64,000 nucleotides of DNA from Botryosphaeria dothidea (Eukaryota; Ascomycota; Dothideomycetes; Botryosphaeriales; Botryosphaeriaceae): positions 1-64,000 of the forward strand of contig WWBZ02000013.1 in assembly GCA_011503125.2 (NCBI GenBank). Direction: 5' to 3'. The translations under genes and the position numbers were made by a program. The notes under the pieces are model-generated. The model saw nothing but the letters and a program-made list of their open reading frames with translations, did no database searches and was not told the origin of the DNA. The number at the start of each line of letters is the position of its first letter. Position 1 is the stretch's first letter. Of the stretch, positions 43,455 through 44,222 are shown one piece after another.

Positions 43455-44222
43455 TCATTGATGAGTTCCATCGCCGAAACCCAGATCGACCCATGCCGCC
43501 GACGCGTCATTCAAGAAGGGCCCAAAATCAAAACCAGGAGACAGAGGCTGCCGCGCCTGATTCACCAGCTCGGAACTCTCGGGTGGCGCAGCATCAGAAC
43601 CAGCGCCAGGAGAACCGACAGACTGGGACAGACCCACAGCGTTATCAGCTGAGGGCTCGCCACGTAAACGCTTTGGTGACCGCTCCTCTCCGGCATTTTC
43701 AGGGTCAGCAGAGTCCCCAGCCTCACGAGCAGTCTCCAGGCGATCCAACTCCTCCAGCTCCTCCACAGTCGAGGCCTTCTTCGCAATCATCAGGCTCCCG
43801 CGCTTCTTCAAAAGATCCTTCTACTTCCTCGCCCGGTCTAGACGCGCCATCGCAGCCTAAGCGGCCCTTAGAGCCTCTGCTTCATCCTACTCGGCTTTAT
43901 CAAGGGCTCGTCGCACACGAAGAACTAAGAAAGTTAGCAGCCAACAAGAAAACAAAGAAAGAAGCATACAATCCGAATGATCTAGGCCAGTGGCATCACA
44001 GGCCGACTTCCCCTTACGAGCACACTCTCCACAACGCGAATAGAACTTATCCATACGACAAACGACAAACGACGGATCATCCTCCTCTTTACCAAAATTC
44101 AGCAACAAACAAGAAGAACAAGGAAGGGGCATATCCTCGCCAAAAAGATCAATCTCGTCACCTAAATCCACGCGCTCAGCACGCTGACCATCACGCTTGC
44201 GCTTGCGAGACTCGAATGGCAT
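43455..44222 (-). pseudogene. Antisense spliced gene of Gypsy-1: six-Cys Zn2Cys6-like, coiled-coil protein
   Basis: It lies on the minus strand between the pol chromodomain and the polypurine tract. Exon 1, 44222-43970, starts at ATG and encodes a basic N-terminus (SRKRKRDGQR), then C35-x2-C38-x16-C55-x8-C64-x2-C67-x7-C75. A 45-nt intron, 43969-43925, has GTATGC, branch GCTAAC and TTCTTAG. Exon 2, 43924-43455, is a charged coiled coil (RRALDKAE, EELEELDRLETARE) followed by SPKRLRG and an acidic/Gly tail. It has three stops, all TAG: 43889-43887, 43859-43857 and 43823-43821. Each fits RIP of a CAG codon on the coding strand, so before RIP it was one frame of 240 codons. I do not recognise the family. 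The cysteine order suggests a DNA-binding regulator. Cognates exist in Gypsy-2 and Gypsy-2b. Confidence 0.72.
43925..43969 (-). other. Intron in the antisense gene of Gypsy-1
   Basis: Minus-strand donor GTATGC, branch-like GCTAAC and acceptor TTCTTAG, 45 nt long. It is located right after the cysteine region, as are the candidate introns of the two relatives. Confidence 0.6.

Follow-up and report, generated by a model that had tools for sequence, protein, structure and literature searches.

Antisense accessory genes have already been described from deltaretroviruses and from plant Gypsy elements. For human T-cell leukaemia virus type 1 (HTLV-1), passages of PMC10186651 describe HBZ as a nuclear factor from a spliced antisense gene, and as one that lowers sense expression. 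The plant Retand elements, which are non-chromovirus Gypsy elements, carry antisense open reading frames (ORFs) with a TRP28 domain between pol and the 3′ long terminal repeat (LTR), according to sections of PMC11963269. For Tcn1-like chromoviruses of fungi, PMC2864245 names an 'additional ORF with unknown function' in a figure legend. Our searches of open-access PMC listed nothing on an antisense gene in fungal chromoviruses, and passages of PMC3538342 and PMC3017866 had no bearing on one. Here, we analysed a 64,000-nt stretch of Botryosphaeria dothidea DNA (contig WWBZ02000013.1, positions 1 to 64,000; the window), in which a chromovirus (Ty3/gypsy) element carries an antisense, intron-containing gene at 43455..44222 on the minus strand. 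This copy of the gene has decayed in the manner of repeat-induced point mutation (RIP). It represents an accessory gene found in one lineage of chromoviruses, and we consider it probable that the gene encodes a transposon-borne, DNA-binding self-regulator.

The gene has the chromodomain on one side and, on the other, the purine tract beside the 3′ LTR. Its frame runs from an ATG at 44222 to a terminal TGA at 43457-43455 and is interrupted by exactly three internal stops, each TAG. A preliminary description, made from the letters alone, had listed the ATG, six cysteines, a 45-nt intron, a basic patch and the three TAG codons, and we located every one of them where it had placed them. It had also argued from the TAG codons that the frame was selected; the stops are indeed TAG, but by themselves they are a weak sign of selection, and it is the comparative data that carry the case. 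The parts of the gene, and the pol frame that covers it, are:

43455..44222, minus: antisense gene, decayed copy, made up of exon 1, intron and exon 2
43970..44222, minus: exon 1, a short basic N-terminus followed by the six-cysteine cluster
43998..44120, minus: six-cysteine cluster C-x2-C-x16-C-x8-C-x2-C-x7-C, residues 35-75
43925..43969, minus: 45-nt intron with GTATGC donor, TGCTAAC branch-like site and TTAG acceptor; homologous introns of 45-49 nt occur elsewhere
43455..43924, minus: exon 2, with a predicted helical (coiled-coil) region, a basic SPKRLRGE patch and a disordered tail (the models are of relatives' proteins)
43400..44227, plus: open pol continuation past a chromodomain stop, overlapping the antisense gene

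Since the pol frame is open across 43400-44227, the antisense gene overlaps pol entirely, and the minus frame needed testing against the idea that it is a by-product of selection on a C-terminal extension of pol. That idea draws on the pol frame, which is uninterrupted here in the window and in the related locus L002, and over most of L043, a copy from a young family. The rival frames predict opposite patterns of change, because the antisense third base lies opposite the sense second base and the antisense second opposite the sense third. The antisense third position was the most variable in 7 of 9 copy pairs and the sense third position the least variable in all 9 (L036 was left out, as the exon was not found there). 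From counts of silent and replacing changes, dN/dS was 0.21-0.60 for the antisense frame against 1.11-1.98 for the sense frame in 7/7 pairs, the sense values being inflated by the opposed overlap. Transversions, counted because RIP makes none, were distributed over the antisense codon positions as 106/51/124 (five pairs; p 2e-7 when tested against equality, a chance expectation that disregards base composition). The variation of intron length from 45 to 49 nt would, moreover, shift the sense frame, and pol ends no later than the chromodomain tail in five chromoviruses without a detected antisense gene. The codon-position and dN/dS patterns thus favour the antisense frame, and we rejected selection on the pol extension, which we regard as extremely improbable.

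Some comparisons speak against selection on the minus frame. Two pairs depart from the pattern, with changes by antisense codon position of 14/9/10 (L026-L024) and 41/29/40 (L002-L008). In the last 20 antisense codons (60 nt), beside the chromodomain, L043 and L027 differ by 1/9/1, which is the sense pattern; the pair L043-L026 shows no pattern (12/11/12) and L043-L028 a weak one (27/30/46), the L043-L024 row being excluded from this comparison. On these counts, the tail seems to be shared with the end of the chromodomain, and the remainder seems to be governed by the antisense gene. Selection confined to the pol extension, an outcome that the preliminary description had set against its own reading, is therefore not what we found: substitutions follow the minus frame, with exceptions in the tail and in two pairs. 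The antisense gene is almost certainly real and kept by selection.

The element that carries the gene has the LTR pair, target duplication, integrase SH3 domain and chromodomain of a chromovirus:

36755..37522, plus: 5′ LTR, 96.9% identity to the 3′ LTR
44337..45104, plus: 3′ LTR
36750-36754 and 45105-45109: 5-bp target duplication CCTAC
42938..43396, plus: pol integrase C-terminal SH3_Tf2-1 region and chromodomain start

In Pfam, its pol scored E 2.3e-18 for SH3_Tf2-1 and E 3.9e-4 (20.7 bits) for Chromo, the latter under the 25.1 cut-off because a stop splits the chromodomain. An Rfam scan of 35000-45200 gave no matches.

The genome searched comprised 51.7 Mb in 78 contigs, window included. 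The window's version of the gene has 7 full and 3 partial copies by DNA search and 61 matches by protein search, and a second and a third family gave 41 and 24 DNA matches. Merged by place, which may fuse two neighbouring copies into one, the antisense hits form 74 loci. Among the 150 SH3 domains listed of 349 candidates, 55/74 loci have a partner on the opposite strand and lie 195-530 nt 3′ of that domain, and 19/74 have none; a same-strand SH3 neighbour within 2 kb occurred once. A chromodomain region lies on the opposite strand in 29 of the 30 loci L013-L042, the exception being L025, at a contig end, with an integrase core only. Conversely, 95 of the 150 listed SH3 domains lack a detected antisense-gene partner, so the gene belongs to only some of the chromoviruses. 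The window itself holds two further decayed copies on the minus strand, at 3016-3423 and 61199-62098, of the L024/L034-type and L043-type families.

Relatives with intact frames retain both the minus-strand gene and its intron, which bears out the original proposal of an antisense, intron-containing gene on a chromovirus. In L002, the minus frame is open up to a stop one codon ahead of where the window's ends, and the plus frame is open too. The LTRs of L043 are 99.6% identical (482 nt compared), and its sense ORFs have 613 aa and 1630 aa (pol); its antisense gene starts at 1701, has a 47-nt intron at 1909-1955 (L043 numbering) and yields a product of 275 aa. As this intron is not divisible by three and the unspliced frame stops within it, splicing is needed to join the exons. 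Of 20 copies in this family, 15 (L043 among them) match exactly across 901 bases and 5 nearly so. The near-identical L029 has an additional base in the intron and has lost one base in the tail, so the young copies are not all intact. Complete introns measure 45 nt in L001, 47 in L043, 46 in L042, 49 in L041, 45 in L027 and 48 in L048, and exons 1 and 2 are in differing frames in L024, L028, L044 and L045. The same architecture (cysteine-pair exon 1, short intron, helical exon 2) recurs in the L001, L043, L027/L044/L045, L024/L026/L034, L028, L046 and L047/L048 groups, some of which have lost cysteines or frames through decay. Families that cannot be aligned share the architecture, and a chance frame was rejected on that ground.

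Relatives are also present among known proteins. The B. dothidea protein P0005 matches the product of a gene in this genome with full identity across 217 aa, and the NCBI gene models of P0005, P0007 and P0010 (Botryosphaeria, Macrophomina) are spliced at the same or a homologous junction, these junctions being gene-model predictions and not RNA evidence. In P0018-P0020, reading continues across the junction with no intron. Outside this genome, relatives were seen as proteins only: viral contig scans (with P0019, P0020 and the L043 pol) and a genome contig scan (P0019) returned no DNA match.

The N-terminus had been described as Zn2Cys6-like, and relatives strengthen that reading. The consensus spacing of PF00172, C-x2-C-x6-C-x5-12-C-x2-C-x6-8-C, fits P0018, P0019, P0020, L027 and L029 (L043 family), and does not fit the window family (x16), P0012/P0017 (x11) or L048 (x15 in the middle). 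No protein reached the PF00172 gathering cut-off of 21 bits; the best was P0018 with 16.5 bits, followed by 15.4 and 13.3, and by L027 with 9.9 and L048 with 8.4 bits. Matches at E ≤ 1 occurred in 3 of the 12 members of A3, and a Pfam scan of the window's exon 1 gave no PF00172 match. Template-free models of relatives contain the two-helix cluster fold. In Foldseek, the P0020 model matched Pho7 best among PDB entries (E 0.17, prob 0.97), and 15 of 17 rows in a second look were Zn2Cys6 DNA-binding domains; the model superposed on Ppr1 at 1.2 Å over 38 residues and on Gal4 at 1.7 Å over 37. A coiled coil is predicted after the cluster in models of relatives. A sequence-profile search of solved structures returned only coiled coils and chance matches, and no middle-homology or other large domain was seen in the antisense proteins. 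Judging from these models, the N-terminus is very probably a Zn2Cys6-type cluster.

A protein of this type could also have come from the host. Zn2Cys6 proteins are a fungal speciality, the intron is host-like, and the gene might be a captured zinc-cluster gene carried as a passenger without benefit to the element. Arguing otherwise are purifying selection between families that are highly diverged at silent sites, recurrence in several families and the position of most loci by a listed SH3 domain; no stand-alone host homologue was seen among the hits. A host gene with a copy outside elements was rejected, none being present among the hits, a non-exhaustive comparison given that 150 of 349 SH3 candidates were listed. 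We hold the passenger origin to be improbable. The antisense RNA alone might instead matter, as a silencing trigger or by interference, with the protein incidental; antisense transcripts of retroelements often work at the RNA level (see also passages of PMC10186651). Constraint at the amino-acid level and the conserved cysteine cluster make this explanation very improbable.

Upstream of the ATG, the leader has a recurrent order: a palindrome, usually a TATA-like site, a pyrimidine-rich stretch and the start codon. In the window, it contains:

44302..44318: 17-bp perfect palindrome ATCTTCGG-C-CCGAAGAT (antisense strand)
44283..44298, minus: TATA-like stretch
44323..44333, plus: purine-rich tract, resembling a polypurine tract, adjoining the 3′ LTR

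A perfect 17- or 19-bp palindrome with the core TTCGG-C-CCGAA is present in all 11 loci read, its centre 72-90 nt upstream of the ATG. A TATA-like word, loosely defined, follows 20-25 nt past the palindrome in 10/11 loci and at 13 nt in L001; in the L043 group, it is only TATTT. The two exact forms of the palindrome occur at 64 + 5 sites in the genome, and reversed controls at none. All 69 sites lie upstream of the antisense gene, 62 before listed hits and 7 before decayed copies, these 7 having been assigned by reading their fetched flanks. The palindrome is absent from 5/5 chromoviruses without a detected gene (5 of 95, from two families, about 2.1-2.2 kb each). RIP hits CA/TG steps, and since the palindrome has no CA or TG step, its survival in RIP-decayed copies is not functional evidence.

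Zn2Cys6 dimers bind CGG inverted repeats, and the palindrome offers the protein a concrete candidate target. The preliminary description had suggested that the protein regulates its own LTR or host chromatin; this candidate is part of the antisense leader and lies outside the LTR. Three observations weigh against binding. The recognition lysine of Gal4-type clusters is not kept, so binding to the palindrome is hypothetical. In L045, L046 and L047/L048, the outer arms are altered symmetrically on both sides with the core TTCGG-C-CCGAA retained, which a hairpin would predict as well. Families with unalignable exon 1, and hence unalignable clusters, share one palindrome, ATCTTCGG-C-CCGAAGAT, so that simple co-variation of cluster and palindrome is unsupported. 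These points favour a different explanation, in which the protein is real and kept but acts on host promoters, chromatin or integration sites, or serves as a cofactor that binds nucleic acids. The palindrome would then be a site for a host factor or have a structural role, for instance by forming a hairpin next to the purine tract in the sense RNA. The confinement of the palindrome to this gene and its fixed distance from the ATG count against that explanation, which we judge unlikely but worth keeping in view. On balance, we lean slightly towards regulation by the protein through the palindrome.

In the mechanism that we favour, self-regulation by the element's own DNA-binding protein, the gene would be transcribed inward from the 3′ end of the element, antisense over the 3′ end of pol, with the leader as its own promoter. 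The intron would be removed by splicing from the antisense transcript, and it would survive retrotransposition because the sense genomic RNA presents no intron in splicing orientation. The protein would enter the nucleus, dimerise via the coiled coil and bind the palindrome or similar DNA near its own promoter and the 3′ LTR. Each element may thereby control its own antisense transcription and, through that or directly, sense transcription of itself and of sister copies. By analogy with HBZ only, repression or copy-number control would be the likelier direction of effect.

Comparisons between families point to exchange of parts of the gene. Eight loci (L026, L028, L031, L034, L036, L027, L044 and L045) share 85-98% of the tested pol segment with L043, the segment having been compared only in part for L044 and L045, and have the palindrome leader in common with it over 46 nt or more. 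Exon 1 and the coiled coil of all eight show no DNA similarity to L043. As the proteins are alike where compared, this represents replacement by a relative and not loss. A 98% coiled-coil match at L024 belongs to a neighbouring element at the same locus and was excluded from the swap count. The exchange boundary lies at about L043:2320 in L026, L028, L031, L034 and L036, and at 2510 in L027 and L044. Homology resumes at 2319-2333 across independent loci, just ahead of the KRPRH basic patch, and this near-constant point is a recurrent exchange boundary. L042/L040 and L043 are 97% identical in the last third of the antisense gene and 77-81% in exon 1 and the coiled coil; judged from these identities, the gene is mosaic even within one family.

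One could imagine, tentatively, an antisense Zn2Cys6-like homodimer that recognises the palindrome by its own promoter and so determines how active its element and sister copies are, with swaps of cluster and coiled coil serving to escape or impose cross-regulation; we think this unlikely. That module exchange as such amounts to a cross-regulation system is, if anything, a shade more speculative. The proposed swapping of cluster and coiled coil in chromoviruses resembles the exchange of repressor modules among temperate phages.

The surroundings of the element contain other repeats. Positions 35355-35958 hold an element of 604 bp whose 153-nt terminal repeats (TGTTACG...GTAACA) are identical and spaced by 451 nt. 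Of this element, 589 nt recur at 100% identity in sequence flanking L043, and 62-63 nt recur in L044. It is a small, recently active non-autonomous LTR element, similar to terminal-repeat retrotransposons in miniature (TRIM-like). The region of the element is flanked, at 33263-36755 and 47104-49987, by long inverted repeats (2089 nt at 90%, 787 nt at 94%), which are nested or inverted older repeats.

If the proposal is true, an HBZ-like regulator arose independently from a fungus-typical DNA-binding fold, and some orphan 'hypothetical proteins' in Botryosphaeriaceae annotations are transposon genes. The locus would also provide a natural example of opposed genes that share their bases, with selection that can be read on one of the two, and a concrete protein-site pair for testing retrotransposon self-regulation.

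Among described systems, the extra ORF of Tcn1-like elements is comparable only in being an extra ORF; the text of PMC2864245 contains no occurrence of 'antisense'. With Gal4, Ppr1, Put3, Leu3 and Pho7, the protein shares the order of cysteines, the predicted cluster fold and the coiled coil that follows; it differs from fungal Zn2Cys6 factors in scoring below the Pfam cut-off, in not keeping the recognition lysine and in being transposon-encoded. The Retand ORFs are likewise predicted to bind DNA, with a regulatory role proposed, in the sections of PMC11963269 cited above. They differ in belonging to plants, in occupying a dedicated 2.9-6.6 kb region after pol and in having a TRP28 domain (PF04195), for which Pfam scans of the antisense proteins gave no match at E ≤ 10; pol overlap, an intron and a palindrome go unmentioned for them in those sections. 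HBZ, together with APH-2/3/4 (passages of PMC10186651), resembles this gene in its antisense position close to the 3′ end of its LTR element; its splicing and its role as a nuclear regulator of the coiled-coil dimer type match what we propose for this gene. HBZ is, however, a basic leucine zipper (bZIP) protein driven from the 3′ LTR, and Pfam scans of the antisense proteins gave no bZIP match. The chromovirus gene instead encodes a zinc cluster, has its promoter-like leader outside the LTR, between LTR and ATG, overlaps pol in full and exists in many swapped versions.
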